DNA of 64,000 nucleotides from Chalara sp. BL73 (lineage: Eukaryota > Ascomycota > Leotiomycetes > Helotiales), in NCBI GenBank assembly GCA_918026815.1, contig CAKJVC010000086.1, positions 62,001 to 126,000 of the forward strand, given 5' to 3'. Position numbers and translations under genes: made by a program. Below are positions 9,468 through 41,480 of the stretch, piece after piece (the first letter of the stretch is position 1; each line of letters begins with the position of its first letter). The notes below the pieces were generated by a model, which worked only from the letters and a program-made list of their open reading frames with translations, ran no database searches and had not been told where the DNA came from.

Positions 9468-12400
9468 CTAGCTAGTTGCGCGATGCGGACAAATGTCCTC
9501 AAAAAAGTGGGTTTTACGCCACCATTCTGTTAGGGTAGTGATACCTTCACTAGTGCCGAGCAGTTGTGGTATAAGAGTGGAAGGGGGCCCTTGGGGTCGG
9601 TTGGTGCGCCTGCGAGCGATTCTGCAAAAGAAAAAGTGAAATCGTGACTTTGGAGAGCCACACGAGCAGTATAATTCCGCTTCTGTATGGTTAAACCGTT
9701 CGTGGTAGTCTTTAAAGTCGCCGTGATTTGATCTGGCTGCGATGATTCGGCCGAGCTCTTTTCTAGGGAGCTGTAGCTCTTGTGGAGGAACAGGAGCTGT
9801 GTCGATTGATAACAGTCGGTAGTTCTCGTGTGCGGCAGTCGCCCACCATTCTGCACGTGCATTTGTAGCTTGTCGAGTTTGCCATTTCTTTAAAGAAGCA
9901 AACGACAACAGGAAAGGGGAGTTAGGGAGCTGCAAAGCACCGTTGCGCGCTTCTATGTCGGCTAGCTCATTTCCGGGAACATTCGCATGGCCAGGCACCC
10001 AGCGGATATGTATATTTCCGGCTGGTGTAATGTGCTCTCTTTTCTTCCAGTCTTTTTGTGCTTGCATGAAAGAGGTAAAGATTGACTGTGAGGAAGTGAG
10101 TGACGGAGATAGTAGGCGAATTGCAACTTCAAGGTTGTCAAGGCATATCCAGACGTTTTTTGCAAGTCGGTTTAAGGGGTGTCGAAAGGCTGCTTTTGCA
10201 CCACATAAAGCTGCAATAGCTTCTGCATCAAAGATTTCAGCGCTAGGGCCGAGTGGGATAGATTCGTTAAGCGTAGTCCCGAATAGGGATAGAGAGTAGC
10301 CTGCCCCTGCATTGCCGTTCTGGAGCTTTGAGCCGTCCGTATACACTATTATATCATTTGACGGGATATCTTCAATAAAGTGCAAGAATGCGGAAGCGCG
10401 TTGTTCTTTCGAAAAAGTCGGATCCGGGGCGCCTATTCGTTTTTCTGCTTCGGTGCGGCTTTCTACCTGGAACCAAGGGGGTAGAGCTAGCATGTCGAGC
10501 TGTTCCGAGGAAGGCAGCGACAGGTACCTTCTTGCGAAGCGGGTTGGGACTCGGCTTCTTCGTGTTGGTATTAGCGGTCCTCGGATCGCGTCTGCACGTG
10601 TACGAAGGGGGTGTTGGGAGTCAAGCTTTCGAATACGAACTGTCGCGCGTAAAGCGATTTCGTCAAGCTTAAGTTCGGGGGGTGAGAGTCCTGCTTCTCG
10701 GAGTAGGACTGAATAGGGGGTTGTGAAGAAGACAGGGAGAATCGACATAGCTGAAACTCGAATTACTTTTTCAAGCTTTGTAAGTAGGCCGTCCACTTGA
10801 TTTGAGGAGAAGCCGTTGTGTGTCTGCCTTTTGCGGCCTGGCCACCACGTTTCTGCTGCAAAATAGACCACCGAAAGCACACACGCTACTACAGCTTGTC
10901 GTGTGAGAATGGGAGATACGCCGCGAAGCGTGTTGCCGAAAGAAGAGAAAGCCTTGGCTGTTTTCAGAGCTTTAGAAGCTTGAGCGAGAACGTGGTATTT
11001 AAAAGTTAGTTTTCTGTCGAACAGGACTCCAAGCCATTTCAAGTAAGGGCGGTCTGTGCTTTCGGAAACTGTGAAGGTTCCCGCCGTTACCGGCGGCGAC
11101 CTGTTTTTGTCCGCGTGCTTTCGAGAAAAGTGAAGCAGCTCTGATTTCTCTGGGTCGAAAGTGATCCCTTCCGAACGTCTCCATTCTAAAGCTTGTGCAA
11201 GCGTAGCTGATAGAGCAAGAGCGTTTTCTTGAAGAGAAGGGGAGATTTTGCAGGAGGCAGCATCGTCTGCGTAGCAGTAGCCGCCCCAAAAAAGTTCCAG
11301 GAAGAAAAGGGGAGAGGTGTAAAGCATAAAAAGGATAGGTGAAACCGGGGAACCCTGGGGCAGCCCGCATTCTATTTCGATTGCATCACCGATCTCACCG
11401 TCGAGCCGGATGCAGACTTTGCGATTTGTGACAAAAGAGGCGACCCACTCGCAAAGGTAGTTCGGCCAGCCTTGTTCGCGTAGTCTTTTGACCAGCCGGC
11501 CAGGTAGGACAGCATCAAAAGCGCCTTTGACGTCAAGCGTCAAGACAGAAGCCGTGAGGCCTTGGTTTAACGCCGTTTCGATATCGTGAGTCAGGCATGT
11601 TGTAAGATCAACTGAAGACCGTAACGGGAGGGCGCCGAATTGCTGTGGAGCTACTACGCTGTACTTGATCGCGACCCATGACATCCTTTTCGCCACCAGT
11701 CTTTCCAGGCCCTTCCCTAGCACCGAGAGTAGCGCGATGGGCCGGTAGGAACGGGGAGAAGTTCGGTCCGCTTTGTTTGGTTTGCTCAAAATAGCAAGAA
11801 TAGCGGTTCGAAAGCAAGCAGGGTGATGGCCCATTTGAATGCAAGCTCGGAACAGTTGACAAATATGCGTTTTTAGCAATGGCCACCCTAGGCGTAGAAC
11901 TGGCGTAGGGATTTCGTCTTTGCCGGGCGTAGTGTTTCCTGCTCCGAGAATTGACTGTTCTACTTCTTGTTCTGTAAGGTCCGGGAACGGCAGCGAGGTT
12001 CTCGGGATGGCGGAGGCTGTAAGTGGGATGTCGCCTACTTCTGCGGCGTTTTGTAAAAGGTTTCGCGCCAGGACGTCTCTTTTGGCCGCTAACGAAGTTG
12101 CGAGAGGGTCTTGCGGCCGTAACGGGTCTTTCAGAGGAGGGGAGCGAAACGAGCCTGTTGACTTATGCCATTTTGCAATGTTAAAAACGTCTTTGCTTGT
12201 AGCTGCTTCGTCGAGCTTTTTCTTGAAGAACGACGCTTTTGCTTGCCGGGTTGCTTTCCGCAGCACTTTCTTTGCTTCGCTTGCTGCGAACCCGTGTTGT
12301 CCTCTTCTTGCGGCGCGGTAAGCTTGTACTGCGAGGGTACAGGCATTGTCCCACCATGGCTGCCCATTATTATGCGTAAGGGCCCGTCGAGCTGAGCCTT

Positions 12401-13304
12401 GGTACGCGTTGCGTATTGCTTCGACAATGTTCGTGGCATAGTTGTCAAGTGAGGTAGTTGTGGGTCTGCTTGCGAGAGGTGGAATGCTCTCAAGGTTGTA
12501 TTTCAGGAGAGAGGTGAAAGTATCTTTTTCGAGAGTAGCGCATCGTAGTCGTGTCGGCCGTTCACGCTCTCTGTTGCCCCACCAGATGTTAGTTAGCAAC
12601 GGAAGGTGATCCGAACCGACTTGGAGTTTTCTTTTTACGCTGGTGTGCACACCTAGGCGGCGAAGGCCGGTAGACGCAAAAGCAAGGTCAAGCACGTTGC
12701 CTACTTGTTGAGTAGGCTTGTCGATCTGTGATATAAAAGAAAGGTCGTGTAGCTCGGTCCACAAGACGAAAAGGTCTGCGAGTGGATCGGACGTGCCTTG
12801 GTAGGAGGGTTGCCAAAGCAAGTGGTGTAGGTTAAAGTCACCTGCTATAAAAGTGGCTGAAGGGAAGGATGAAGCAGAGAAAGACATCAGGCTGGTGACG
12901 GCTTTTTGGCTTCTGTACGGGCTTCCTGTGGGTGCGTTATAGACATTTATGATCATAAGTGATTGGTTTGTAGGTGTTTGAATTGTTAAGAAAAGCAGGT
13001 CGTTGGCTGCTTCGTCTTCTTGCGGGAGTAGGCGTTCTTGTGTAGCGCGTAGGCCAACTCCTTTACGCACGTATGTCATAACACGAGGGGTGTTCTCGAA
13101 GGTGTCGACTGGAGAGAAGCATTCAAAAGAGGGGTGCTTCTTTGTGATGCGCCTATTTAGCTCGGTGAAAAGGCGAGGTTCTTGAACTAGAAGAATGTCG
13201 ATAGAAGAGTTGAAAGCTGTAAAAAGAGCCAGCTCATGCGAACTAGCGCTTTTTCCAACATTAATTGAAAGAATTGAAAGGGAAGAAGAAAAGGCTTTTC
13301 CTGC
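9468..13304 (-). CDS. LINE 1 ORF2: endonuclease, reverse transcriptase, RNase H
   Basis: The frame is open from just after a TGA at 13307-13305 down to 9468. It contains the start of an exonuclease-endonuclease-phosphatase domain (SILSINVGKS), then GDFNLHH and GSDHLPL endonuclease motifs, a reverse transcriptase with GLPQGSPVSP and the YADD catalytic site, an RNase H with YTDGSKLQNG and VPGHANVPGNE, and a terminal zinc-knuckle-like CSCGSP segment. The first in-frame ATG is at 13079, inside the endonuclease, so initiation must rely on a non-ATG codon, on frameshifting from ORF1, or on a lost base. No internal stop is present in about 1,280 codons, so the copy is young. Confidence 0.9.
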   Translation of the reverse strand, partial: AGKAFSSSLSILSINVGKSASSHELALFTAFNSSIDILLVQEPRLFTELNRRITKKHPSFECFSPVDTFENTPRVMTYVRKGVGLRATQERLLPQEDEAANDLLFLTIQTPTNQSLMIINVYNAPTGSPYRSQKAVTSLMSFSASSFPSATFIAGDFNLHHLLWQPSYQGTSDPLADLFVLWTELHDLSFISQIDKPTQQVGNVLDLAFASTGLRRLGVHTSVKRKLQVGSDHLPLLTNIWWGNRERERPTRLRCATLEKDTFTSLLKYNLESIPPLASRPTTTSLDNYATNIVEAIRNAYQGSARRALTHNNGQPWWDNACTLAVQAYRAARRGQHGFAASEAKKVLRKATRQAKASFFKKKLDEAATSKDVFNIAKWHKSTGSFRSPPLKDPLRPQDPLATSLAAKRDVLARNLLQNAAEVGDIPLTASAIPRTSLPFPDLTEQEVEQSILGAGNTTPGKDEIPTPVLRLGWPLLKTHICQLFRACIQMGHHPACFRTAILAILSKPNKADRTSPRSYRPIALLSVLGKGLERLVAKRMSWVAIKYSVVAPQQFGALPLRSSVDLTTCLTHDIETALNQGLTASVLTLDVKGAFDAVLPGRLVKRLREQGWPNYLCEWVASFVTNRKVCIRLDGEIGDAIEIECGLPQGSPVSPILFMLYTSPLFFLELFWGGYCYADDAASCKISPSLQENALALSATLAQALEWRRSEGITFDPEKSELLHFSRKHADKNRSPPVTAGTFTVSESTDRPYLKWLGVLFDRKLTFKYHVLAQASKALKTAKAFSSFGNTLRGVSPILTRQAVVACVLSVVYFAAETWWPGRKRQTHNGFSSNQVDGLLTKLEKVIRVSAMSILPVFFTTPYSVLLREAGLSPPELKLDEIALRATVRIRKLDSQHPLRTRADAIRGPLIPTRRSRVPTRFARRYLSLPSSEQLDMLALPPWFQVESRTEAEKRIGAPDPTFSKEQRASAFLHFIEDIPSNDIIVYTDGSKLQNGNAGAGYSLSLFGTTLNESIPLGPSAEIFDAEAIAALCGAKAAFRHPLNRLAKNVWICLDNLEVAIRLLSPSLTSSQSIFTSFMQAQKDWKKREHITPAGNIHIRWVPGHANVPGNELADIEARNGALQLPNSPFLLSFASLKKWQTRQATNARAEWWATAAHENYRLLSIDTAPVPPQELQLPRKELGRIIAARSNHGDFKDYHERFNHTEAELYCSCGSPKSRFHFFFCRIARRRTNRPQGPPSTLIPQLLGTSEGITTLTEWWRKTHFFEDICPHRATS

Positions 13305-15277: not shown

Positions 15278-18200
15278 CTATTGTAGGGAGTTAGTTGCCT
15301 GCTCTACTTCCATGTCCAGTCGTCTTGTGGCCATGGCGAACTTGATCGTTGCTCGAACCGCGTCTATATTTGGTGTCCATTTCTCCGGGTCAGATGGAGC
15401 TTTCCCTCCCAGGTAGAAGGAGATGTCGCCTCTTCTAGTATCTGTCTGTGCTAGCATTTGCGTTCGGTGTGCGTCCCATCTCGTGCATCGGAAAAGGAAG
15501 TGCTTGACAGTTTCTGTTGCCTGTCCGCAGGCACATTGGTCAGATTCCGCTGCTCCAATCCGGTGAAGATATCCGTTCAGTCGTGCCATTCCTGTACGGA
15601 GCTGTGCTAATACGCTCGCTTCTCTCCGCTTGAGACCGTCGTATAGGGTACGAGTATGTTTTCCTGGCAGGGCGGTGTCTATTTCTCTGGAATACTTTCC
15701 CACCTCGTCTGGTAGTGTCCTTATTGCCTTTTCTGCCTTTCCCCTGTTAATAGTTGTAGATTCGGCTTGGTAGCATTGCCCTTGCGGTGTTCGGTCTGGC
15801 TCGGTAGCCTGTCGTGCGGCTTCCTTTGCTCTCCTGCCGAGCTCGAAGCTCTCCTGAGACGGGATCCATATCATCGAGATAGAATTGCCTCCTTTTCTCA
15901 GCGCAGACGCTACCTCGTAAATCTCTTTAATGCTGGTTTGTCCTGATTGATGTCTGGGTTGGCTGGTTGCTAGCAGGGCTCCCTGGTTGCTTGAAATAAT
16001 CGTGATCTGTCTTCCCACCAGATGTAGCGGTAGGCGCTTCATTGCCATCGCGATCGCGGCGAGTTCAGCCGTGTACGGGTTCTGTTTCGTTCTTGCTCCC
16101 AGCGTGACTGAGTATGCAATCGGTTCTCTACCTGTTACAATGCCGAGCGTGTCGTGGATGGCTCCTCCCATCTCCCACTATCCTCTTTCTCGCGGACGAG
16201 CTTGTCGCAACCCGGATGCCGCAGATAGTGTTCGCTATGTTAGTAGTCTCCTCCGTTCCGCGGTCGATTGTAGCGGGGAGCCGTTCCTCCCACGGAGCTA
16301 TTACATAAGGCTGAATAACCTCCATCTTATTTGTTGGCATGTTTTGATGCACGCAAGCTATCTTTTGCAATGGTGACGTGAATCTCCGGAGTGCTCTGGT
16401 GTTTAGCTTCGATATCGGATTCGTTTCGGGTAGCGTGCGGATGTTGACCCACACCTTCGTAGCCCTCTCTGCAAACCGCTCGCTCACTGTACGTATGCTG
16501 GCTTCGGCTTCTGCAACTGCGGTGGCGACGGTTCGGAAAGCCCCTGTGACGGCCTGTGCTCCGATTCTTTGTATTCGGTTCATTAAGGCCATGCCCTTGT
16601 GCCCGCAAGCATGCATCCACACATTTGAAGCGTAGTCCACGACTGGCGCTACCGTCGCTCCAAACAACTGCCTTGCAGTTGAGGGAGAGACCAGCCGCAG
16701 TCGTTTTAATGCCATCGCGGCAAGAAGGCCCTTGGTTGTTGCTTTCCCGATGTGCGGTACATACCGGAGTCCGGAGTCCATAACGACTCCTAAGATCTTG
16801 GTCGCCTCCTTTGGTGCGATTGCCTCACCTTTGATCGCGAACGGTCTGGTACTGATTCGGTCATGTCGTCTAGTGAAATGAATGATTGCTGTCTTCTTGC
16901 CTTCGAACGTGGCTCCGCTCCGCCTTTCCCAGTCCATTGCTTTGTCGATGATAGCTTGAATCCCTTCTCGGTTCACATCCGCTGATGACCCTGTAACCCA
17001 CGCGTTATAGTCATCCACAAATGCTATTGATCCCCCATTTGCATTCAGTTTGTGTTGAACTAGGTCGGCATTGAAAAAGAGGAACAGGATTGGCGACAGT
17101 GGTGACCCTTGCGGTAAGCCTGCTTGTGGCAGTGGCTGCTGTTGAGAGGTGTGGCCATTGACTAGTATGGTTGCGGTGCGTTCTGAGCAAAAAGCATCAA
17201 TCCACCGCACCAGGGCCGGTGGGATGCCTCTCGCTGCGAGTCTCTGCAACAGTCTGTCCTTGTACACTCCATTGTATGCGCCCTTCACGTCGAAGCTAAC
17301 CAAGCTAAGGACCTTCTTTGATCTCCATGCATTATAGATGTGTTCTTGCAGCAGCAGAAGTGCCTGTTCAGCAGAGCGCTTCTTTCTCGCCCCGAAGTGA
17401 TTCGTGGGGAGCAGACCAAAGGTCTCTACTGCGTGCGATATTCTTTCCGCAATCACCGACTCTAGGACCTTGCCCAGTGTGGAGAGTAGCGAGATCGGCC
17501 TCCATGATTCTGCAACCGTGTAATCACCTTTGTTTGGCTTCTTCAGCGGTATGATCTTGGCATTTCTCCATTGTGTAGGGAGTTGCCCTTCGTCCAACGA
17601 CGTCTGAAAGAGGAGCAACACCCTGTCCTTGACCACTGGCCATACCTGCTTCCATACCATGGCTGGTAACCCATCCTCTCCTGGCGCCTTCCATGGCTTC
17701 GCCGCGAACATCCTCCGTTCGACTTCTTCCATGGTCAAGGGAGGCATCGACACTGCGGTTCGCTGTGGTCGTGGTCCTTCATCTTCTATCCTCTCCGGCA
17801 GTGGGGGAAAGAACACCGACAGCAGTTCCTCTGCTTGTTCAGTTTTGTTTTTCGTGGTGGATCCGTCTCTTCTCGTCAGCGGCGGTATCTTGTCAAATGC
17901 TGAACTGCCACTAGGATCTAGGTACTTTGCCGCTTGCCAGATGTTTGTGTCATCTGCAAGGAAGTCCTCCCAGTGCGCCTTTTTCTGTCTCCGGACAGCA
18001 TCATGGTATTCCTTAGCAGCTTCATTTGCTTGCTGTTCTAGTTCAGGAAACATGCGACCCATCCGTCGTTGAGTTCTAGCTTGGTTCCTCCAGTATGTAT
18101 AGACTCGCCGCAGCTGTGTGAGATCTGTTGTCCACCATCTCTTCGCATATGGTGAAGGTTTAGCCCTTGGGGTGAGTGCATGGACTGCCTCCAGCACCGC

Positions 18201-19127
18201 GGTCATCAACCCATCTGCCTGTTGCTGTACACTGCCACCAAATGGAACGAAGCGAAGATTGGTAGCAATCCTGGCCTTTATATCAGTCCACGGAGCATTC
18301 TTGAAAAGCAGCCTTGCTTCAACAACTCGTTCCGGAGTCGCAACGTCGAACGTCGTCTGAATTGCTCTGTGATCGGACCCATGCTCGGTCGTGTGGACTG
18401 TACACTTCACTACTGACGTTGCCAATTCCTCGGAAGCCAGTACCAGATCAATTGTTGACTCATGATTCCCCCGTTGCCACGTTTTCGTTCCCCTCCGGAG
18501 CAAGCTGTGAAGGGCATGCTCACTCATGAGGTCGATGATCGGGTCGGCCTCTCCTTGCCTTTCCCGTGAGACGTCCTCTCCTCCCCATAATTGATCGTGC
18601 CGGTTGAAATCCCCGGCAAGTACCACATCCACTCGGGTGCCAATCTTGCTGCGTGTTTCCCTGATTACCTGGTGTAATTCGCATATCGCAACCCTCAATG
18701 CCTCTGCATCCTGCGGTTCAACGTAGACTGACACTACCAGTATCGACCGGTCTGGGAGTCGCAATACCGCTGCCGTGAGGTCCGATGATTGTATAGGCAC
18801 CTGTTCTGCTTCGATATCCTTCCGAATCCAGAGCATGCTTCGAACCGCCCACCTTTCCACACGTTGGACTGTGGGTACTATTTTGATCCAGTTTGGGTGT
18901 CCCATAGGGGCTGTCACCAAAGTGCCGTCGATAATCCTCGCATATGGCTCAGATATCGCCAACACTCCACAATCCTTCAATTGCTCATCACTCATTAAAC
19001 TGTGTTGCACCTCTCGCTGCTTCCGGACATTCAATTGGAGTATTTGAAAGGTTTTACGCATCCTGGGAGCGGTGGCGTGTTCCGCAGTTCCCGCTGAGCG
19101 ATTCGTGTGGCCCTCCGCATGTAACAC
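15278..19127 (-). pseudogene. LINE 2 ORF2 (EEP-RT-RNase H) with one frameshift
   Basis: The first 999 residues (19127 to 16128) contain the endonuclease (LAGDFNRHD, GSDHRAI) and the reverse transcriptase (GLPQGSPLSP, FVDDYNAW). The RNase H and C-terminal CACGQATETVKHFLFRC segment continue in another frame (16171-15278). The join lies near 16171-16176, where one base shifts the frame. Just before it the sequence VATSSSA stands where RNase H enzymes carry the first catalytic Asp (typically TDAS/TDGS), so RNase H would probably be dead even without the shift. Confidence 0.85.
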
Positions 19128-20412
19128 ACTTTGGTATTACTGCTTGACATTCACTGTGATGGTGTCCTACTTGAGCACACTTGGCACAGACTTGCGGTTG
19201 CGTGCATGAGTACGCCTTGTGCCCGATTTCCTGACATCGATAGCATTTCTGTGGACCATATCGCGGCTCGAAAACCCTAGTGTACGCTGACTCTCCTGCG
19301 ACATGGAAGTATTGGTCTTGTAACAGACGTGCTGCTTCGCTGCCTTTGGTGACATAGACTACCATTGAACCATAAGCTTTACCCGCGTCTTTCCTGCTGA
19401 GCCACCCGATCTTGGCTATGTGAACCCCGTTTTCCTCCCCAAGGACTTCGGCGGCGCCCGGTAAAACCTTTCCCTCCTGATCGAGAATAGTTGTTCGATT
19501 GACATTATCCACCTTGACCGGGTACAGTTGGTCTCGCAGCACTCGGACTCCCTCGGCCGCAGTTTTCTGGGCCGCTTCCTTGACCCGTTGGAGTTCAGCT
19601 TCGTCTCTGCATACAATCTTGATGCGTTCCGTGTTCCTGGCGTCTCTGATCACCGCAGCGCAACGCCAATTTGCTTGTCCTTCCACGGTGCGAATCTCCT
19701 CCTCAATTGCCTTCCGAACTGCCCCAGGTTGTGCCTTGCTTCTCTCTCCCTCCCCAACTCTGGACGTGTCAACCGTGCAGTACAGCGTATCGGTCATTGT
19801 TGACGGCGTGGTGCGCAGGGAGGAGAGGGTTCGTACATTGCTTGGTAAACTGTCTGGTGGCGTTCGGGCGACTTCTGCATACGATGGGGATGGGCTTGAC
19901 GGTGCTTGGGCATTGGACAGCTGGGTCTGAATCTTTTCCATCATATCCGTAACCTCTGCCTTAAGCTCTGCCTTAAGTGTTTCTATCTGCTCCGTGAAGG
20001 TCCGCGTTATGGTTTTGATCTGGGTCACGTGCTCCTTCTTCTGTTCCTCCATTGCTTTCAACAGCGACTTGACCAAGTCAGTGAGCACTTTGATCTGCAT
20101 ATTTACGCTTGCATTCGCTTTTTCGTGTACCGGCTGGTTCGGGGTCGCTGCCGCTGTTGCAGGATGTTCTCCTGCCTTCGCGGCGAGGGCCTTAACCTTC
20201 GTCGCTACATTTTGCTCCTTGGGATGCGAGCTGATCCCCGTTCGTCTTGTTTGCAATGGCATGGGAGCTTCCTGAATTACTTCAATCGTGTCCTCTGTAT
20301 CGCTTGCCACCGCCCTAGATCTTCTCTTGCTCCATTCTAATGCCTTCGACGTCTGGACGCGTTCCCGGCTCGACTGACGCGCCACGGCCTCCATGTTCTC
20401 CTTCCTCCACAC
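19054..20412 (-). CDS. LINE 2 ORF1 gag-like protein
   Basis: A 452-residue ORF with a central coiled coil (about 90-165), an RRM-like region (VNRTTILDQEGKVLPG and LSRKDAGKAYGSMVVYV), and three zinc knuckles at the C-terminus (CYRCQEIGHKAYSC, CAKCAQVGHHHSEC, CVTCGGPHESLSGNC). It overlaps the start of ORF2 by 74 nt. A related fragment lies at 38898-39299. Confidence 0.85.
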   Translation of the reverse strand: MWRKENMEAVARQSSRERVQTSKALEWSKRRSRAVASDTEDTIEVIQEAPMPLQTRRTGISSHPKEQNVATKVKALAAKAGEHPATAAATPNQPVHEKANASVNMQIKVLTDLVKSLLKAMEEQKKEHVTQIKTITRTFTEQIETLKAELKAEVTDMMEKIQTQLSNAQAPSSPSPSYAEVARTPPDSLPSNVRTLSSLRTTPSTMTDTLYCTVDTSRVGEGERSKAQPGAVRKAIEEEIRTVEGQANWRCAAVIRDARNTERIKIVCRDEAELQRVKEAAQKTAAEGVRVLRDQLYPVKVDNVNRTTILDQEGKVLPGAAEVLGEENGVHIAKIGWLSRKDAGKAYGSMVVYVTKGSEAARLLQDQYFHVAGESAYTRVFEPRYGPQKCYRCQEIGHKAYSCTQPQVCAKCAQVGHHHSECQAVIPKCVTCGGPHESLSGNCGTRHRSQDA

Positions 20413-21057
20413 AACTACCGATTCTCACTAATTTGATTGCTGGTTGACTTGATTGCTGGCTGCCCTCAAATGCAATTCTCCTCGACAGCGACGATGACTG
20501 TTCGTAAAAGGGTTACTGGCGGTCGGATTTTCGATTGTCGTTGTTCTTCCACGTGACCTCGCTTCGCTTCCGGCGCGACGCGTCTGACGCGTCTCACCAC
20601 CTGCCTCCATTCTATATGCTCTCTTCGAATCCTCTTTTCCAAGTAGAAGGCGAATTCCCGTTTCACAGTCCGGTCTCAGTGTTGGTCGGGTCTGGTACAG
20701 TCTCCGATGTTGATCGCTCTCTTTTTTCACCATACTACAGTCGCTAGCGAAATCGGCTTCCGCCTTACACATCTAGATTTTATGCTAAGCCACAATGCCA
20801 AGACGCTAGCTGCCTTATCCATGTATTCATGCGCCACACTTTAAGGTGTCACGTGCGTCGGTGGGGTAACCAGCTTCGGAGGACAGAGAGCCGTAGGTTC
20901 TTGATGGGAATAGGGGTCTGACTGACGTGGAAAAGAATCAGTCTAATACCAGACTCCAGGGTACAGTTCCGAGCGCGACATGCCCAGTAAAGGAGCCTGA
21001 TATTCCGAATTCTCCATCATTCGTCTTCGTCCGTCAGAACCACTAGCATCGAATGCA
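20413..21057. other. LINE 2 leader and flanking spacer
   Basis: The part next to ORF1 is probably the 5' UTR of LINE 2. A minus-strand open frame (20428-20772) lies in it but has no recognisable motif and a composition like the leader. From about 20780 to the GTPase stop nothing is identified. Confidence 0.4.
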
Positions 21058-22017
21058 TTACCTGTAATTCGCCAATATCCGCTTGTATTGGCCAAGTTTC
21101 TCTTCTCCTTTCTTGATCTCCTTCTCGATTTGAGCACCTTCCTCTTCAAATCCTCGGTCATACTCTATTTCTCGCTGTGCGTCTCTCTTTTCTTGAAGTC
21201 TTGTCGTATACTGTTGGACCTTTCGACGGAGCGTCTCTAGTGCAAAACGGCCAGCATCAGTCTCCAGAAGCGGCCTATCACTGTCCACAGCCTGTTGCTC
21301 AATATTTGATCTCATATGGGATGGCGGGAATACATGCTCCAAATATGGGCCAATAACACGAAACGATGCATTTTGGGTGCCGTCATGCCGTCGGTAGATG
21401 GCACCACAGGCCAAAATTTCTGCCCAGTAAACGCTCCGCAGCTCCTTTTCACGATATTCCCCAACCTGTTGTTGGAGGCTGTCCCACATTGTGGTAACCA
21501 AGGTGACGCGGCTCAGAAAGTGATCCCCACAGAGCTCCCGAAATAACTGGATATTCTTCGTAGCCGAACCGCCTATTCTAACGTCGGTGATTCTGTGTAA
21601 ATATATTATGCCGGAAAGGTAGATTCCCTCAGATGACGTTCCGCGCAGGAATTGAACAAACTGGTCGAGGATAGAAATATCGGAGTTCGTGGCGCTGTCA
21701 AACCCGGGGGTGTCGACGAGAATTATGTCACAGCCGCCGTGGACAAAAGCATCATGCCTAAGGATTTCCGACGTGGCTACAGAAAACACGCGTAAGCTAG
21801 ATAGACAGGAAGATGGGACAGTGTGGGTGGCTTCTAACATGGTTCCAGCTCGTTAACCCAGTCTCCACCGGTAGCTACGTTTGATCAAAGATGTTTTGCC
21901 CACGCCCGTGACACCCATGACTGCTAGCAAGATCTTCGGCCTCCATTTAGCAAGAGGGAGACTGATGCATTTGCACACATAGAAGGAATAGAAAGTAGAT
22001 TTCAATGAAATTGACAT
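21058..22017 (-). CDS. P-loop GTPase of the fungal AIG1/IRG-like type (two exons)
   Basis: Minus-strand exons 22017-21879 and 21833-21058 flank a 45-nt intron (21834-21878), giving 304 residues. Only splicing brings in the G1 motif GVTGVGKTS (residues 35-43). G3 is DTPGFD (87-92), and TTMWD (160-164) occupies the G4 position. The signature LSGIIYLHRITDVRIGGSATKN after G3 is typical of a fungal GTPase family that occurs alone or fused to NLR-like genes. The last 70 residues form a Glu/Arg/Lys-rich coiled coil. The gene is divergently transcribed from the p23-CHAT gene, with 367 bp between the start codons. Its proximal promoter has a decayed copy at 35464-35634. Confidence 0.85.
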
Positions 22018-22384
22018 GAAGACGACCTCTGATTGGCTCCAGGTCCACTTTTTAGGCTACTCCCGCCTCATTGGCGGTTTAAGGGATACTCTTATCGCCA
22101 AACGTCCCCCGGCCATCTGGTTCTTCTCTCTGAACATGATCGGCATGCGCGACTGATTGCGAGTAGGATAAGAGGCAGGGTTTTCGTCCAGCTCCCCAGG
22201 CAAGGTCTGCCTTCTCTCCTGTAGCAGAAGCACTGCTCTCCCCTAAAGGCTTAGAGCAAGATCAATAGATGCTTCGTTAAATTTTCTTGACCATCGAGTT
22301 ATTTTCTTCGCGCCCAAACGCTTCTTGCTCCCCTGCAATGGCCTTTCTTTTCTTGACACCTGCAATCTGCATCACGTAACATCA
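21967..22384. promoter_or_regulatory. shared divergent promoter of the GTPase and p23-CHAT genes
   Basis: The interval from the GTPase start (22017) to the p23-CHAT start (22385) is 367 bp and must hold control sequences for both genes. Bases 21967-22136, which include the GTPase 5' end, are closely repeated at 35464-35634. No TATA box or named site is claimed. Confidence 0.5.
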
Positions 22385-25300
22385 ATGTCTACGGACCCAG
22401 TGACCCCCGAAGGTGAGGATCACCAGCCTTCGGTCTGGGCCCGTCATCACAGCAGTAGACTGACAATGTTCATCCTTTCCTATAGTCCTTTGGGCTCAAC
22501 GCTCGTCCAAAGCTGACGCCGCCAAAAATTTCATCTGCCTTACCATCGCCATTCCCGATGTGCTTCCTTCAAATCTCAAGCTGGGCCTGAAGCCGCAATC
22601 GCTCACTTTTACTGGCCATTCCGAGTCCAATAAAAAGACCTATCGTCTGGAACTTGAATTCTACGCGGAGATTGACGAGAAGGAGAGCAAGGTCCACCAT
22701 ACGGACCAGAAAATCGAGATGTTGTTAGCAAAGAAGGAGCTCAACGAGTCGTACTGGCCGAGGCTGTTGAAAGATTCCAGGAGAGCCCATTTCTTGAAGA
22801 CCGACTTCAACAAGTGGGTTGATGAGGACGAACAGAATGAGGCTGCTGACAGTGACTTCCCCAACCTAGGCGGTATGGGTAGGTAGATATTGTCCTTCTC
22901 ATTACCGGCAAGGCTATCGAAAGTTTCAGCTAATGCTCATTAAACAGAAAGAATCCCAGAGATTGGGGACGAGCAAGCAGTGGTAACCCCCAATGATGGA
23001 CATCCTGGCCTCGCTAGTAGGCCGGACAACCGGGCCGACATTCTATTCAAGCAATATGAGCGGACAGGTAGGACGGAAGATCTGGACGAGGCCATCACCA
23101 ATGCGCAGAGAGCGGTCAATATCACACCGAGAAATCACCCAGATCTGCCTAAGAGGCTTGATACATTGGCCTATATTCAGCGAAAGAGATACGAACAGAC
23201 AAGGAAGAGGGAAGAGTTGGAAGGGATCATCTCCAATCTGCAGCAAGCAGTTGATATGACACCTAAAGATCATCCCATCCAAGCTTTGCGTCTCGATATT
23301 ATAGGCGACCTGCTAATAAGTCGATATGAACGGACCATGAAGCTGGACGACCTGGACGACGCCATCTCCAAAGCACAGCAAGCGGTTGAAATAACACCTA
23401 CCGACCACCAAGATCTATCTAGGCGGCTGGACAACCTGAGCAGCGTGCTAAGTCGCCGATACAAGCAGACACGCGATTTGGACGACCTGAATAAGGCCAT
23501 TAGCAGAGGTGAAGCAGCTGTAGCTGCTATGTCTCACGTCTACCCGAATAGAGCAGCTCTATTAAGCAACGTGGCTCTATCCTTTCGACTCATGTTCGAA
23601 CGGACTGGCGACCTCACCTATTTGAACAATGCTGTCGACAGAGGTGAAAAAGCTGTGGCGGCTATATCTCACGATCATCCGGATAGAGCAGCTATGTTAA
23701 GCAACCTAGCCGCCTCATTCCGGCTCAGGTTCGAGCGGACTAGCAACATCAACGATGCGAACAATGCTATTGCTAGAGGAGAAGAAGTCGTAGCAACAAC
23801 ACCTTATAACCACTCAGAGAGAGCAGCTCGATTGAGCAATCTAGGCGGTTCCTTCCTCCGCAAGTTCGAGCGGACTGGTGATCTCGGCGATTTGAACAAT
23901 GCTGTTGGCAGAGGAGAAGAAGCAGTGGCAGCTACACCTCATAACGACTCGGGGAGAGCACATTGGTTAAATAACTTAGCTGCCTCTCTTCGATCCAGGT
24001 TCGAGCGGACTGGTAACATAAATGATGTAAACAACGCTATTGGCAGAGGAGAAGAAGCAGTGGCGGCCATATCTCACGACGACGGGGAAAGAGCAGATTT
24101 GTTGAGCAATCTATGCATTGCTTTTCTCCGCAGGTTCGAGTGGACTGGCGATCTCGACGACTTGAACAATGCTGTTAGCCAAGGAGAAGAAGCTATCGCA
24201 GCCACACCATGCGACCACCCGAAAAGGACAGCTATGTTGAGCCACCTGGGTAGCTCACTTAGACTCAGATTCGAGCGAACTGATAATCTTAACGACTTGA
24301 ATACTGCTATTCGCAGAAGTGAAGAAGCAGTGGTGGCCATCCCCCATGACCACCCAGAAAAAGCAGCTCTATTGAGCAACCTCGGCCTGTCTCTTCTAAC
24401 CAGGTTCGAGCGGACAGGCGACCTCAACGACTTGAACAATGCTATCAGCCGAGGAGAAGCTGCTCTAGCAACCATACCCTGCGACCACCCGAAAAGGACA
24501 GCTATGTTGAGCCACCTGGGTAGCTCACTTAGACTCAGATTCGAGCGAACCGATGATCTTAACGACTTGAATACTGCTGTTCGCAGAAGTGAAGAAGCAG
24601 TGGTGGCCATCCCCAATGACCACCCAGAGAAAGCAGCTCTATTGAGTAGCCTTAGCCTGTCTCTTCAAACAAGGTTTAAGCGGACTGGTGATCTTGACGA
24701 CTTGAACAATGCTGTCAGCAGAGGAGAAGCTGCTCTAGCGACTATACCCCGCCACCACCCGAAAAGAACAGTTATGTTGAGCAACTTGGGTAGTTTACTT
24801 GGACTTAGGTTTGGCAGGACCGACGAGCTTAGCGACTTGAATTCTGCTGTTCGCAGAGGTGAAGAAGCAGTGGTGGCCATCCCCCATGACCACCCAGAGA
24901 AAGCAGCTCTATTGAGCAACCTCGGCCTGTCTCTTCTAACCAGGTTCGAGCGGACAGGCTACCTCAACGACTTGAACAATGCTATTGACAGAGGAGAAGA
25001 AGCTGTAGTGACTACACCTCACGACCATCCGGATAGAGCAACTCGGTTAAGCAACCTAGGCAAATCCTTCCGACTTAAGTTCGAACAAACTGGTAATCCC
25101 AACGACTTGAATATTGCTATTCGTAGAGGAGAAGAAGCTGTGGAGGCAATACCTCACGGCCATCTAGATAAAGCAGCTACGTTAGAAAACCTAGCCAACT
25201 CCTCTATGCGCAGGTTCGAGCGAACTGATGATCTCAATGACTTGAATTTTGCTGTTCGCAGAGGTGAAGAAGCCGTAGCGGCCATCCCCCATGACCACCC

Positions 25301-27849
25301 AGAAAAAGCAGCTCTATTTGAGCAACCTCGGCCTGTCTCTTCTAACCAGGTTCGAGCGGACAGGCGACCTCAACGACTTGAACAATGCTATCGACAAAGG
25401 AGAAGAAGCTATAGCGACTACACCTTACAACCATCCAGATAGAGCAACTCGGTTAGGCAGTCTAGGCGGCTCCCTTCAACGTAGGTTCGAGCGAACTGGT
25501 GATCTCGGCGACTTAAATACTGCTATTCGCAGAGTTGAAGAAGCGCTGGTAGCCATACCTCACGATCACCGGAATAGAGCAGGTCTATTAAGCAATCTAG
25601 GCTCCGTCTTCCTTCGCAGGTTCGAGCGGACTGGCGATCTCGACGATTTGAACAATGCTGTTGGCCGAGGAGAAGAAGCAGTGGCAGCTACATCTCATGA
25701 CCATCCGGATAGGGCAACTCGGTTGAGCAACCTAAGTATCTCTCTTGGACTTAAGTTCGGCAGGACCAGTGATTTCAACAACTTGAACTCTGCTATTCGC
25801 AGAGGCGAAGAAGCAGTGGCGGCCATCTTCAATAACCACCCGAATAGAGCAACTATGTTGAACAACCTGGGTAACTTCTTTCAAAGGAGGTTCGAACTGA
25901 CTAGTGATCCCAACGACTTGGACTCTGCCATTCGCAGAGGTGAAGAAGCTGTGGCAGTCACACCTCGCGGCAATCCGAATAGAGCAGGTTTCTTGAGCAA
26001 CCTAGGCCTGTCTCTTCGAACGAGGTTTGAGCGAACAGGGGATCTCGACGCCTTGGATACTGCTATTCGCAAAGGAGAAGAAGCTATGGCGTCTACACCT
26101 CACAACAACCCAGCTAGAGCAACCGTGTTGGGCAATCTAGGCTCCGCACTTCTCTGCAGGTTCGAGAGGACTGGAAGCCTTGGTGATTGTATCCAAGCTA
26201 TCTCCATCTTGACAGAGGCTGTGGTGATGCCCAGCGCACCACCACAAAGTCGAATTGAAGCAGCATTGCTGGCTGCCAGTGTACTGGCCAAATACCAGAG
26301 CTGGGGGGAAGTCAGCAGTATTACAGAGATAGCTGTGAATCTTCTCCCAAACGTCAGCCCACGCGCGTTGAGGCAAAATGACCAGCAGCATATACTGGCA
26401 CAATTTGCTGGTCTGGCATCTCTGGCTACGTCTGCAGCTCTCCAAGCAGGAAAAGGCGCTTGCCAGGCTGTGGAGCTTCTGGAGATTGGTCGAGGCATTA
26501 TCATGGAATTACGATTCGGAACCCGAACGGATCTCACAGACCTTAGAGATGCGCACTTGGACAAGGCAGAGCAATTTGAACGGCTTCGTTACGAACTGGA
26601 CTCAGGCGGGCCTCTTTCAGCAGTTACAGCGGATATACCGACCTCGATACCAAAGCGGAGTCGACACGACGCAAGCCTCGAGTTCGACAGGATCATAGCC
26701 GAAATCCGCCGTCTACCCAAGTTCGAAAATTTCCTTAGACCTCTCCAAGCAAGTGAGTTGATGGATGCTGCATCTTCTGGTCCGATTGTTATTATCAATG
26801 TCAGTGACCACCGCTGCGACGCGCTTCTCGTCAAGCTTGACAAGATATGGGAATTGCCTCTTCCTCGTCTGCGTCATTCAGACATCAAAGACTGGGTCAT
26901 GAGATCCACTCCTTCAACGGCATTGCTAGAATGGGTCTGGGAGAGCACAGCGCTCCCGATCTTAGACGAACTTGGGTTTCGGGAGACCCCGACGAGCAAG
27001 TGGCCTCGCATATGGTGGATTCCAACTGGGTTGATGAACCGACTACCACTCCACGCCGCCGGACGCCATTACGCGGGTTCCGCCGAGACTGTACTTGATC
27101 GGGTAGTATCGTCATACAGCTCATCTATCAAGGCGCTGGTTTATGCCCGACAGAACGCAGTGCAGAAGGATCTCGATGATGCTTCCAACGCAGCTCTGCT
27201 TGTTTCAATGCCCACAACACCGTCGCGTTCTGATCTCAAACCTGGCGACCTCATGTTCGCCGAAGAGGAGATTCAAATTCTGGATAGCCTACTTTCTCCT
27301 TCGACACCAAAATTGAAACCCAAGCAACCACGTAAAGCACATGTCCTCGGCAGTTTAAACACCTGCACGATATTCCATTTCGCTGGTCATGGCAATTCAG
27401 ACCCCCTGGATCCTTCAAAGAGCTGCTTACTTCTTAACGACTGGGTAGAAGACCCATTGACGGTTGAGGATCTCGTCGAATTAAAACTATACCGGAATCC
27501 TCCTTGGCTTGCTTACCTCTCAGCTTGTTCGACAGGAGAGAATAAAACTGAGAACTTGCAAGATGAGGCAATACATCTAGTGAGCGCCTGTCAACTGGCA
27601 GGCTTTCCACATGTCGTTGGATCGCTATGGAAAGTGGACGATGAGTGTTCTGCTGATGCGGCCAGAGAGGTCTATGAGACTCTACGAGACAAAGGATGGA
27701 ACAGTGAAGCAGTGGCATTGGGCGTTCACAATGCTTCAAGGTTTCTACGGGTTAAAACTGGTGGTGGACGTTGGAGGGGCATCGGTGCTGAAATACGGAA
27801 GGAAGGTAACCCCTCCATATGGGCTGCTTATATTCACGTTGGACCCTAG
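22385..27849 (+). CDS. p23/CS - TPR-like repeat - CHAT fusion protein (one frameshift in this copy)
   Basis: Exons 22385-22412, 22486-22878 and 22948-27849, with GT-AG introns at 22413-22485 and 22879-22947. Residues 1-140 match the CS domain of p23/Sba1 HSP90 co-chaperones: VLWAQRSS near the start, LTFTGHS in the middle, and YWPRLLKD then FLKTDFNKWVDEDEQNE at the end. The third exon continues in frame into about 23 tandem 45-residue TPR-like repeats (core RGEEAVAA...LSNLG.S...RFERTGDL.DLNNAI), then a C-terminal CHAT domain with His in FAGHG (codon 27388-27390) and Cys in LSACSTG (27526-27528). Predicted length is about 1,770 residues if the frame is continuous. An extra T in the TTT at 25317-25319 shifts the frame; sister repeats have TT there. 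Whether this is an assembly error or a real lesion cannot be told. The repeat part has no in-frame Met before about nt 23250, which favours the fusion over two separate genes. Confidence 0.78.
22995..26200 (+). repeat. tandem 135-bp (45-residue) repeats
   Basis: About 23 copies, with period 135 bp confirmed by the spacing of the gaacaatgct motif (23624 and 23759). Adjacent copies differ but some non-adjacent copies are nearly identical, for example around 24210 and 24480 (270 bp apart, two units) and around 24342, 24882 and 25286. Such patterns point to unequal recombination. This is a solenoid suited to ligand or partner binding. Confidence 0.85.
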
Positions 27850-27919
27850 ATTGGAGGAATCTGCGAGAGGCTGCTCAAGGTTTTTCTGTTCTATTCCCTT
27901 TCTATAACTGCGGCTTGAT

Positions 27920-28684
27920 GATCGATTTTGCAAAGAACACTGCATTATTCCATTGTGTATGCCTGCGCATTCTTCACATATTCTTCAACCTTTGGATGTT
28001 AGTTGCTTTGCGGTGTTGAAGCGTTTTTACGGACAAGCCGTAAAACAGCAAATGCGGGTCGGCATCAACCATATTAATAAAACCGAGTTTTTACAGCTCT
28101 ATCAATCCGTACGACAAGCAACTTTTACTGTTACTACGGTTCAAAGTGGATTCAAAGCTGCTGGATTGGTTCCTTTTAATCCAGATCACGTATTAGATCA
28201 GCTACATGTACGGCTTCGTACGCCGACTCCTCCACCCACTACGGAGCTTACTACAGCCTGGGTGTCTGAAACACCTCATAATATTGTTGAATTGCAATTG
28301 CAAACCAAGATTGTTCAAAGATCGATTCGATATCGTACGCAAAGCCCACCTAGTCCTACGGTTCAAGCTGTAAATCAACTTATCAAAGGATGCCAATTAG
28401 CCACGCACCATGCTACTCTTCTTGCGGCTGAGAATCGACAATTACGGGCCGCAAATGAAAAAGTCAAAGAAAAAAGAGCTGTAAAGAAATCATTCGTACG
28501 CAAAGGAGGTGTTTTACGGGTTTCAGAGGTTCAAAACAGGTTGAATCAAGCTACAGCTGATATTGAAGTTGTAAATCAGGTAGTTGATCAAAACGTAGCT
28601 CCAGCACGTACACGTGCCCCAGCGAAGTGTAGTATATGTAAATCGCTAGAGCACACTGCTCGTACATGCCCTGACCGTCAATAA
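27920..28684 (+). pseudogene. C-terminal remnant of a Fot1/pogo transposase
   Basis: The reading frame opens around 27920 with the DDE_1-type segment CMPAHSSHILQPLDVSCFAVLK, in which PLD carries the third catalytic Asp, and runs to 28684 ending in a CSICKSLEHTARTC zinc knuckle. The N-terminal DNA-binding domains and the first two catalytic Asp residues are missing. The relic starts about 70 bp after the stop codon of the CHAT gene. It is a different lineage from the intact element at 31609-33445. Confidence 0.8.
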
Positions 28685-29131
28685 ATCAATTATTCCAATC
28701 CGCAAATTGATATTTTAAGTAGTTGTGATATAATTGCAAATCAAAATTGAAAAAAAGTGGTGGTTGCAGGGATTGTGGCCAGGATGATGATTTGGCCAGC
28801 TAAGTGATCAGGTACGTTAGGCAATTCGATATTACCTAAGCGCAGGGGAGGGAATGGGCGAATTGGTTGCTAGTAAAAAACAGTAAAAAACAAAAAAATT
28901 GCTTACTGCTGCCTAGTAAGGCATATTTTCAAATCTGCGAATTCCTCTATACTTGCTGAACAAAATCACTACTTTGTTAAATCTAGTCATTTCTGTACCT
29001 GCCAAAACCTTACCCGTTATTAACTCTTGCACAACAGTGTTACTGGGCGGCCTATAGACACTCTTCTTGCGGTTTGCAGTCCATTCCGTTTCGAAAGCCC
29101 CACCAGTACCCACATCAAAATCTTGGTTGCG
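28685..29131. other. spacer
   Basis: Probably holds the 3' end of the Fot1 relic and the 5' flank of the next gene. No feature is supported. Confidence 0.4.
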
Positions 29132-29959
29132 ATGTCATCGATTGGGAAAGTCACAAATTCTCTCCTTTCGGCGACCAACGAGAACACCGTCGCGCTGTTG
29201 AATATTAACCTTGACTTTTCACTCATCAGATGCGAGGCTCCCAAAGAATTCAAAGCCATTGGACGGGCGCTCACCTCCGCTCGGCGCAGAGAAGCAGAGG
29301 ACGGTGCTATACATAAAACTGCTCGACGACTTGGTGCTCTTTTTGAGCAACTGATTCCTTCGACCCCAAAACTGCTTAAAGCTTATGGCCGCCGAGCGTC
29401 AGAAATAATCGAATCCCCAGGCATCAATCCTCAAGGAACTGATAGAGACGGTCCATTTGAAGCCTATGTTGGTACAGATTGTACATCAATATGGGCGGCT
29501 GCAACTTCAGGCCCAGCATCTCTAGGCATACATCTACTTGCTTGTATGCTAGCACGTGCCTGGGATGTTAAAGAAGCCATTTCTATCTGGGTTGAGCTAG
29601 TAGCCGAAAGGCGGAAAGAGGTGGAAGTATCCATATCGGATAATAGCATAGTTTCAGCGACAACGCTTGTTGCAGCACGTCAAGACATCTCTAGATCCGA
29701 GATAGCAATTTGGGATGCTAGTGCGCGGTCATGGCTCCGTCGTGCTGATCAAGCAAAAATGGCTAGTCGCGATCAATTTTTGCTTATAGTCAAAAACGTC
29801 TCCATCCCCTTCAGATGCCACGCATCTACTTATACCAAAGTATTAGATGCATGGGTGAAAGGCATGGAGTGCTTAGAGAGGTTACTCAGTGGACTGCCCC
29901 AACAAGTCTCCGATCGTGCGATTCTCCTAGGGTTGATTGTGGAGGCTCTGACGGTCTAG
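29132..29959 (+). CDS. truncated fungal hypothetical protein
   Basis: Starting at MSSIGKVTNSLL, 275 residues are open. The sequence resembles the N-terminal part of a large uncharacterised Pezizomycotina family (recognisable by TSIWAAATSGPASLGIHLLACMLARAWD and the motif ISRSEIAIWDASARSWLRRAD). As I recall, full-length members are roughly twice this length or more, so this copy is cut at 29959. A longer frame from 29027 exists, but the ATG at 29132 fits the family start. No catalytic motif is evident; the function is unknown. A tiny LINE insertion lies just downstream. Confidence 0.6.
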   Translation: MSSIGKVTNSLLSATNENTVALLNINLDFSLIRCEAPKEFKAIGRALTSARRREAEDGAIHKTARRLGALFEQLIPSTPKLLKAYGRRASEIIESPGINPQGTDRDGPFEAYVGTDCTSIWAAATSGPASLGIHLLACMLARAWDVKEAISIWVELVAERRKEVEVSISDNSIVSATTLVAARQDISRSEIAIWDASARSWLRRADQAKMASRDQFLLIVKNVSIPFRCHASTYTKVLDAWVKGMECLERLLSGLPQQVSDRAILLGLIVEALTV

Positions 29960-30042
29960 CGAATCTTGAAATAACAGCCTAGGAACTGGGAGAAAGATTT
30001 CGAGTTCAGGTCCTTGCACGTACAGTAAAGTTCGAAATCGGC

Positions 30043-31608: not shown

Positions 31609-33445
31609 AGTCGGAGGCCCCCCCTTCCGGCCACCCCCCCCTTCCGGCCACCTCGCTTAGCACACCGCCACTTCGTACCCTCATATATAGAACTCAAATA
31701 GATCAATAGAATCTTATTCAATTGCTCTACAATTTTGCAAATCTCTTGATAATATCATGGAGCCCTCATATACCGAAGAAGATGTCATGCGAGCACTTGA
31801 TGAGGTTGCAAATGGGAGGTCTGTGCGGCGGGCGGCCTTGGAATACGGTGTTCCAAGGTCTACTCTTACAGACAGATTAAATGGCCACACATCACGTCAA
31901 GAAGGAGCAGAACACTTGCAAAAGCTTGCACCAATTCAGGAAAAACGTTTGACAGAGTGGATTCTAGTTCAAGAGTCTTTAGGGCTTAGTCCTACTCATG
32001 TACAGATCAAGGATTTTGCTCAACGCCTTATTGCTATCCGTGGAGACACGACTACACTAGGAAAACGATGGATACGAGCTTTTTTAAAAAGGAATCCTAT
32101 GCTAAAGACCAAAAAGCAAGTCAGGATTGATTCTACTCGTGTCAATGGCGCTACAACAAGTATTATTAAAGCTTGGTTTCAAAAATTAGAGATTCCTGAA
32201 ATCAAGGCTATTAAACCAGAGAATCGTTGGAACATGGACGAAGCTGGTATAATGGAAGGTCAAGGATCTAATGGGCTAGTGGTAGGAAGTGTTAATCGAC
32301 GTTTTATTCAAAGAAAACAGCCTGGTTCTAAAGCGTGGACGTCTTTTATCGAATGCATTTCAGCTACAGGGGTAGCAATTTCTCCATTAGTCATGTTTAA
32401 AGGCAAAACAGTTCAACAACAATGGTTTCCTACTAGTTTGGATACTTTTAAAGATTGGAAGTTTACTGCAACTGAAAACGGCTGGACATCTGATGAAACA
32501 GCTTTAGAATGGCTGACGAAAGTGTTTATTCCTTACACTACTCCAAGCAACCCTAAAGAGCCTCGACTACTTATTTTAGACGGACATGGGAGTCATGAAA
32601 CAACAGATTTTATGTATATGTGCTTTCAGCATAATATACACTTGTTATTTCTACCACCACATACATCTCATGTACTACAACCTTTGGATTTGTCCATTTT
32701 CTCTCCTTTAAAGGAATCATACCGCAAAGAAGTTAGTTACTTAAGTCTTATAACTGATTCTACACCAATTGGAAAGCGAAACTTTCTAGTTTGCTATCAG
32801 AAAGCTCGCCAAAAGAGTTTAACAGAAAAGAATATCCGAACTGGCTGGAAAGTTACAGGTTTATGGCCAAAAAATATATCCAAGCCACTTATGAGCCGTT
32901 TGCTATTAGAAAATAGCAATAAGGCCGTTCAACCAACTCAACAAGACGTTATTAAAGAATCAGGACTAGTATGGAATGAAAATATATCACTAGTTGCTTG
33001 GAATACCCCCAAAAGATCAAAAGATCTACGTTTACAAACTGAAACAGTTTCCAAATTGGGCGAAGTCGACATGCCAACTTGTCGACAACTCTTTAGGAAG
33101 ATTGTAAAAGGATTTGATGCAAAGGACTACGCTTTAGGGCAATCAGAGCTTCGAATCAAGCAATTGGAAACTAGATTGGAGCAATTGGCACCTAGAAAAA
33201 GAAGAAAAGTTCAAACTAGTCCAAATTCGAAGTTTGCAAATATTAAGGCTATTAAAGAAGCTCAAATCAAGGCGGGAGACCGTGAAATTGAAGAAGAAGA
33301 CTCTGATTCTACTTTAGATTCAGTGTCTACAGGCGATTGTATAGAAGTTGAGGAACCATAGAGTTATTAGGGTTGTAAGTAGTAGGTGTCATGCTAAGCG
33401 AGGTGGCCGGAAGGGGGGGGTGGCCGGAAGGGGGGGCCTCCGACT
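31609..33445 (+). mobile_element. intact Fot1/pogo DNA transposon
   Basis: Inverted repeats begin agtcggaggccccccc and contain a twice-repeated ccttccggccacc unit. The element is flanked by TA on both sides (31607-31608 and 33446-33447), the Tc1/mariner-pogo target duplication. Length is 1,837 bp, the normal size for Fot1-like elements. It carries one intact transposase. Confidence 0.93.
31757..33361 (+). CDS. Fot1/pogo transposase
   Basis: An uninterrupted 534-residue protein. An N-terminal Psq-type HTH (VRRAALEYGVPRSTLTDRL, about 20-45) is followed by a CENP-B-type HTH (about 55-120) and a DDE_1 catalytic domain with Asp in NMDEAG, Asp in LILDGHGSH and Asp in LQPLDLSIFSPLK. A coiled coil and basic stretch near the C-terminus (RKRRKVQ) could be a nuclear signal. 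All catalytic residues and both terminal repeats are present, so the copy may be autonomous. Confidence 0.93.
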   Translation: MEPSYTEEDVMRALDEVANGRSVRRAALEYGVPRSTLTDRLNGHTSRQEGAEHLQKLAPIQEKRLTEWILVQESLGLSPTHVQIKDFAQRLIAIRGDTTTLGKRWIRAFLKRNPMLKTKKQVRIDSTRVNGATTSIIKAWFQKLEIPEIKAIKPENRWNMDEAGIMEGQGSNGLVVGSVNRRFIQRKQPGSKAWTSFIECISATGVAISPLVMFKGKTVQQQWFPTSLDTFKDWKFTATENGWTSDETALEWLTKVFIPYTTPSNPKEPRLLILDGHGSHETTDFMYMCFQHNIHLLFLPPHTSHVLQPLDLSIFSPLKESYRKEVSYLSLITDSTPIGKRNFLVCYQKARQKSLTEKNIRTGWKVTGLWPKNISKPLMSRLLLENSNKAVQPTQQDVIKESGLVWNENISLVAWNTPKRSKDLRLQTETVSKLGEVDMPTCRQLFRKIVKGFDAKDYALGQSELRIKQLETRLEQLAPRKRRKVQTSPNSKFANIKAIKEAQIKAGDREIEEEDSDSTLDSVSTGDCIEVEEP

Positions 33446-40315: not shown

Positions 40316-40784
40316 CTAGGCACCCGAATGAATGTATGTCGCCCACATTGTGGATCGTGTGGGGTTATTGAGGCGAACGTGTGAGACGGCACACTGTAGG
40401 GCCTCTGGTATATCCTTATTTGAAACCTCATTGCCCTTCTCAATCAAATATGTGTAGAACAACTTCGCAACCTCAACGCAAATGTCATCATCTGCGGTCC
40501 ACAACGAACCTATCACATGTGCAAATCCCGCTACTTGAAATCCGTTGACCAGATGAAGCGCCTCATCTGCGAGCCGTTGCACTTTGGCCTCTGCGGTCGA
40601 GCATGCTGAAAGATATGCTATCCAGGCTATTCGCATTCCAGATCACGCCCACACTTGTGTCACATCCAAGGTCGCCTAGGAAGGCTGATTTGGCAATGAA
40701 AGGTTGCTCTACCACGTAATCCTTGTCCAAATTGACGCCCAATCGGGATTTTGTCCTGCTCGGCCGCTGGCAACGGGGTGACAA
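40316..40784 (-). pseudogene. CHAT-domain C-terminal fragment
   Basis: The C-terminal half of a CHAT protease-like domain: SRLGVNLDKDYVVEQPFI (frame 40784-40563), then IAYLSACSTA with the catalytic Cys, LADEALHLVNGFQVAGFAHV, and the terminal MWATYIHSGA (frame 40636-40316). A frameshift separates the two parts, and the His-bearing half and upstream repeats are gone. It belongs to the same family as the CHAT domain at 27240-27849 but is clearly diverged, so it is a separate gene remnant and not a recent copy. Confidence 0.8.
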
Positions 40785-41277: not shown

Positions 41278-41480
41278 GGACTAAAATTATCGCCGCCATT
41301 ACCTTTACTCTTCTTAATCAATTGAGACCTTGAAGTGCATGAGCTCGAGCAAACCCTAACGGCGTAAAATCTTGTGCGCATCTTCTCCGCCGTGGTGCGC
41401 AGCCTGAGTCTGCCACGAAATCAAAGCCGTGTACTGTAAGCTCTGTTTTGACACGACGGCCAGTCTGAATAGAGGTGGAA

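Follow-up and report, generated by a model that had tools for sequence, protein, structure and literature searches.

The locus described here lies at 22385-27849 of a 64,000-nucleotide stretch of the genome of the fungus Chalara sp. BL73 (C80:62001-126000, hereafter the window), whose assembly comprises 58.7 Mb in 199 contigs. It holds a chimeric gene on the forward strand, in which the front half of a gene for the HSP90 co-chaperone p23 stands ahead of a TPR-CHAT gene, and this chimeric anatomy is real in the assembly. Exon 1 of the p23 part (22385..22412, +) provides the start codon and ends in phase 1, and intron 1 (22413..22485, +) follows. Exon 2 (22486..22878, +) encodes the CS domain, an FNKW motif, an acidic stretch and a terminal GGM. 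Together the two exons encode a 140-residue p23 front half. Intron 2 (22879..22947, +) is 69 bp long. Its donor, GTAGGT, stands where p23 has its second intron; a GCTAAT branch-like site follows, and the acceptor, ACAG, comes just before the TPR frame. Both introns are GT-AG and join their exons in frame, as an earlier note on this DNA had described, and the sequence from 22948 onward is in frame with the TPR units. In its first frame (22948..25319, +), exon 3 holds a partial TPR unit and then, from 23055, TPR units of 45 residues. A block with a one-base frame break, located by frame comparison with sister repeats, occupies 25308..25326 (+). The second frame (25321..26160, +) contains the remainder of the broken unit and six clean units from 25351, and the CHAT domain with the stop codon lies at 26920..27849 (+).

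The CS part matches yeast Sba1 at E 8e-22 and scores 23.8 bits against a Pfam cut-off of 21.3 in an hmmscan of the joined protein, which upholds its earlier assignment to p23/Sba1. A Pfam CS scan of the whole genome at E 1e-3 gave four places, the window's CS not being among them. In this domain 44 of the 45 near-invariant p23 columns are kept and 35 of the 92 other columns are changed; the ordinary p23 of the same genome, on contig C11, has the same pattern (1/45 and 41/92 changed). The FNKW of the window aligns with Sba1 and human p23, and the F and W of the FDKW motif are kept. The equivalent residues of Sba1, F121 and W124, are important both for binding Hsp90 and for inhibition of the ATPase, according to PMC7864943. 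After window exon 2 there is no counterpart of p23 exons 3-4, which in the C11 p23 encode a glycine-rich part and the acidic C-terminal tail. Because this tail is missing, the module is p23-derived and is not itself a p23. The AlphaFold model of the CS part has a mean predicted local distance difference test score (pLDDT) of 66, with values below 50 for the greater part of residues 94-130; as this leaves the HSP90-contact segment unmodelled, the core fold alone was used. Judged from its sequence, the CS part is p23-derived and appears fit for HSP90 binding.

The repeat region consists of 22 clean 45-residue units and a 23rd that holds the frame break, in agreement with the roughly 23 tandem repeats counted earlier. 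Mean pairwise identity between units is 50% for protein and 63% for DNA, with pairs reaching 87% and 92%, and the TPR_10 profile matches at 52.5 bits in the first frame and 40.8 bits in the second (cut-off 27.5). TPR repeats of fungal NOD-like receptors (NLRs) can be highly homogenised, and highly internally conserved (HiC) repeats are those with at least 85% identity over 100 residues, as stated in PMC4986451. The window array just misses this threshold, its best two- and three-unit blocks having 84.4% over 90 and 83.0% over 135 residues. Neither a NACHT nor an NB-ARC domain was found in a Pfam scan of the three pieces of the gene, and its product is not an NLR. The CHAT domain scores 130.5 bits against a cut-off of 24 and spans profile positions 2-288 of 289; its His and Cys, claimed as intact before, are indeed present in the motifs HFAGHG (His codon 27388) and LSACSTG (Cys codon 27526). 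A PDB sequence search with the CHAT frame gave no match, and two weak PADLOC matches to the repeats (E 0.002 and 0.007) were not used. The genome has 15 CHAT matches, some of them pieces of one gene, and a p23 match stands beside CHAT only at the main CHAT of the window. Besides itself, a search for close DNA copies of the CHAT end gave only two short stretches on C38 (67% and 70%). The nearest CHAT relative in the genome by protein identity is L021 (C130:64000-73900; 50% over 272 aligned columns), which has one stop inside. A second CHAT piece of 52.5 bits (profile 190-289) lies in the window at 40319-40627 (-), corresponding to C80:102319-102627.

The genome has one ordinary p23, that on C11, which in our reading has four exons and a normal tail, exons 3 and 4 having been joined by eye. 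A search for further copies returned the window, C11 and one match at chance level (E 0.095). The first two introns of the C11 p23 have the same positions and phases as those of the window gene, and window exon 2 is 67% identical to it in DNA. The two proteins have 86 of 139 residues in common, with codon-position differences of 40/25/74, a nonsynonymous divergence (dN) of 0.28 and a saturated synonymous divergence (dS). This p23 identity, together with both shared intron positions and phases, is more than chance would be expected to give. The window thus carries p23 exons 1-2 with the ancestral donor of intron 2, placed so as to splice to a TPR-CHAT gene. By eye, the start Met of two sister TPR-CHAT proteins of the same genome, L018 and L019, lies near the point of the repeat where exon 3 begins, and the p23 part therefore seems to stand in for the beginning of an ordinary TPR-CHAT gene; a third sister, L017, has a different start.

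Database proteins were searched for further p23 fusions. A query of the CS domain alone gave 1539 matches at E 1e-10 among 1566 candidates, and the 120 best look like ordinary p23s (66-76% identity). Among shorter proteins (about 243-771 residues), 166 candidates yielded 55 matches at E 1e-5, of which 17 were examined in full; a tail screen flagged 14, nine within the 17, the other five being P0132, P0157, P0168, P0171 and P0175. None of the 17 joins CS to an immune-type domain. They are p23s, run-on gene models, intron read-throughs and broken or chimeric entries, two of them with dehydrogenase domains. The CS region of a 1151-residue query was also compared with 633 longer candidates of about 633-2014 residues at E 0.001, and two passed, a nematode protein and P0001. 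P0001 has 920 residues, with a p23 front half and a HET domain at 497-652. Its CS is 71% identical to that of the window and lies below the Pfam cut-off (16.3 of 21.3 bits). The similarity fades at about the end of p23 exon 2, and the alignment beyond CS was discarded as noise, since it passes through the window's intron. P0001 begins MSATPEVLWAQ on a 3248-bp contig, which may be cDNA because it has no trace of intron 1. Since P0001 is a p23 CS-HET protein, the presence of the p23 front half on fungal immune-type proteins gains one further case. The architecture seems to be new, with just two cases known, one with TPR-CHAT and the other, of different source, with HET. Among the titles and abstract openings listed in a literature search, none describes a fusion of p23 or CS to CHAT or HET, which does not prove absence. 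The words 'p23' and 'Hsp90' are absent from two fungal NLR surveys, and the literature matches to 'P23' with CHAT or HET were chance uses of the string.

The C11 p23 clusters with rows named Mollisia, Coleophoma, Amorphotheca and Xylogone, which we take to be Leotiomycetes (99/98 in a 44-row tree; 97/91 for a 43-row set in a 124-row tree), so that the grouping probably places the host in this class. The window CS falls outside this group, as sister to P0001 (98/85 in the 124-row tree and 95/88 with the 44 hand-picked rows). Bootstrap was unsettled in both trees and the window and P0001 are long branches in the larger one; the support for their sisterhood in the two trees is moderate. In the approximately unbiased (AU) test, grouping the window with C11 was not rejected (p 0.168), nor was grouping Leotiomycete rows with C11 and the window (p 0.301) or the same plus P0001 (p 0.331); the window with P0001 and C11 gave p 0.066. 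Shared rare residues were tried as proof of a CS lineage and set aside as weak evidence, because the window and P0001 share three, and for either of them the highest value among 134 control pairs is also three (means 0.18 and 0.28).

We propose, at about even chances, that the chimeric gene places an HSP90-tethering N-terminal module on a fungal TPR-CHAT immune-type protein. Splicing from the donor of the second, partial p23 (exons 1 and 2 and the intron-2 donor) would join it to the TPR-CHAT gene behind it. In the CS module, the surface by which p23 holds closed HSP90 is retained, and the p23 tail, needed for client maturation, is gone, with the TPR array in its place. Most likely, the module would bind the long receptor to HSP90 in cis, making it a client that the chaperone helps to fold and keeps inactive, and a ligand on the TPR array would release the CHAT protease; how HSP90 might act on the tethered receptor is inferred. 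Reviews describe CHAT proteases of fungi that carry TPR repeats and are encoded close to gasdermin genes (PMC10197012 and PMC12881547), and in Podospora one such protease with TPR repeats activates a gasdermin (PMC12881547). More tentatively, the p23 front half may be a mobile splice cassette, made of a start codon, a CS domain and a phase-1 donor, which fungi graft onto HET and TPR-CHAT immune-type proteins, each of these thereby becoming a cis client of HSP90 that occupies the position of the p23 tail. If so, the cassette would be a built-in chaperone leash on self-destruct receptors.

Several points weigh against the tethering proposal. The earlier note had assumed one open frame from CS to CHAT, and this does not hold: the frame leaving CS (22944-25442) stops at 25440-25442, and CHAT is in a separate frame, 25279-27849. 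As assembled, the spliced product would be a CS-TPR protein ending at residue 971 that does not reach CHAT. Of the receptor with its own HSP90 adaptor proposed in that note, the adaptor survives, being p23-derived and keeping the residues that bind HSP90 in yeast p23; its in-frame connection to CHAT is lost, the gene being broken in between. The conservation of CS dates in part from before the fusion. Another genome combining CS and CHAT, on which the earlier note had staked its reading, was not found among proteins of about 243-771 or 633-2014 residues, the lengths covered, the nearest case being the CS-HET protein P0001. Scans of part of the neighbouring frames against Pfam, PDB and PADLOC, none of them with a gasdermin profile, named no gasdermin near the gene. 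Local duplication, an old paralogue and transfer are all possible sources of the CS copy, and the AU test leaves the choice among them unsettled.

A less likely explanation is a dead chimera: duplication into a region rich in transposons would have produced the fusion, and the gene would now be in decay, the frame break being an early lesion. The break lacks a convincing bridging intron. Among the best 25 examined of 32 GT-AG candidates, the two best donors match GTAAGT at 4/6 and have no branch-like motif, and the candidates with a branch-like motif have donors of 3/6; none is strictly excluded. Transposase remains begin 59 bp past the CHAT stop, a full transposase frame lies at 31691-33358, and no orthologue was found in the protein searches over the two length ranges given above. 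Yet CS is open, and the repeats and CHAT stay open on either side of the single break (930 and 843 codons). Moreover, around the one-base shift at about 25.31 kb, 28 + 11 + 73 nt otherwise show no difference from the sister repeat at 24363, which, like that at 24903, keeps the frame, so the shift is younger than the homogenisation of the repeats or is an assembly error. Because of the break, our confidence in a working CHAT product from the present allele is low; this allele may be dead, and intact ones may exist.

It is distinctly unlikely that the locus makes two products, a short CS-only protein from transcripts retaining intron 2 and a TPR-CHAT protein that starts separately. Retention of intron 2 brings a stop one or two codons on (GGMGR*), directly after exon 2, and several p23s of about 140 residues in the database have similar ends, such as GGMGE or GGMGT. 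The donor, branch-like site and acceptor are all present, though, and the frame is kept. The TPR frame opens only 4 bp before the acceptor (stop at 22941), and its first Met is at 23256, 308 bp past the acceptor, confirming that no usable Met follows the splice for about 300 bp; a start there would cost two full units and a partial one. As just the 69-bp intron separates the CS part from the TPR frame, a terminator and a new promoter would hardly fit in. Least probable, to the point of being very unlikely, is that CS serves as bait, an integrated decoy like those of plant NLRs that detects foreign proteins directed against p23 or HSP90 and, on being struck, fires CHAT: the module does occur also on the HET protein P0001, but the kept near-invariant columns fit tethering and luring equally and nothing in the analysis indicates a foreign binder.

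Upstream of the chimeric gene, a divergent P-loop gene occupies 21061-22053 (-), with a GVTGVGKTS motif seen by eye; in Pfam, 21853-22053 has matches only below the cut-offs and 21061-21852 has none. This gene and the p23 part may share the gap of about 330 bp as a promoter region. In the 1 kb upstream, no heat-shock element was found at the window gene and one near-match at the C11 p23, shuffles giving 0.27 and 0.23; an Rfam scan of 20000-30000 gave no match. Downstream, a DDE transposase piece (27908-28681, +) matches DDE_1 at profile positions 97-177 of 177 with 39 bits, a 275-codon frame open from an ATG (29132-29956, +) has no Pfam match over the cut-off and no PDB match at E 1, and the open transposase frame at 31691-33358 scores 147.5 bits for DDE_1. 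The window also contains a fungal protein kinase frame (431-2626, +; Pkinase_fungal, 476 bits) and AAA ATPase frames (41469-44881, +), with two AAA stretches with AAA_lid_6 and a further overlapping AAA frame. By eye only, long frames at 9471-13304 and 16131-20424 (-) resemble retroelement proteins of the long interspersed nuclear element (LINE) type. An AT-rich stretch at 52001-54000 has a G+C content of 0.297, compared with about 0.50 around the gene.

Compared with the p23/Sba1/Wos2 co-chaperones, the window gene is alike in its CS domain, exon 1-2 structure and FxKW motif, at the level of identity found for the 120 best matches; it differs in lacking p23 exons 3-4 and in its fusion to TPR-CHAT. 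P0001 shares with it a p23 front half that stops near the exon-2 boundary, and has a different middle part and a HET domain where the window gene has TPR-CHAT. The fungal gasdermin-activating TPR-CHAT protease, as described in PMC12881547, likewise has TPR_10 repeats ahead of a CHAT domain with its His and Cys; the window gene differs by its N-terminal p23 module, its frame break and the lack of a recognised adjacent gasdermin gene, within the scans described above. Csx29, the prokaryotic TPR-CHAT protein of type III-E CRISPR systems, has a similar TPR and CHAT layout, and its profile (NCBIfam NF041237) matches the window weakly, at 30.8 bits with the cut-off of 300 not reached. According to PMC4986451, plant and animal NLRs are served by HSP90 together with SGT1 and RAR1 and depend on HSP90 through separate adaptors such as SGT1, and SGT1 matches occur in all complete fungal genomes analysed. 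No study of an HSP90-receptor link in fungi came up among the papers listed in the literature searches. A receptor with its own HSP90-binding module would make HSP90 dependence testable by single-residue changes, and would add a co-chaperone to the N-terminal domains recombined by fungal immune-type genes. SGT1 (TPR-CS-SGS), the HSP90 adaptor of plant NLRs, is a separate protein with TPR first and no CHAT, whereas the CS of the window gene is of p23 type and part of the putative receptor itself.

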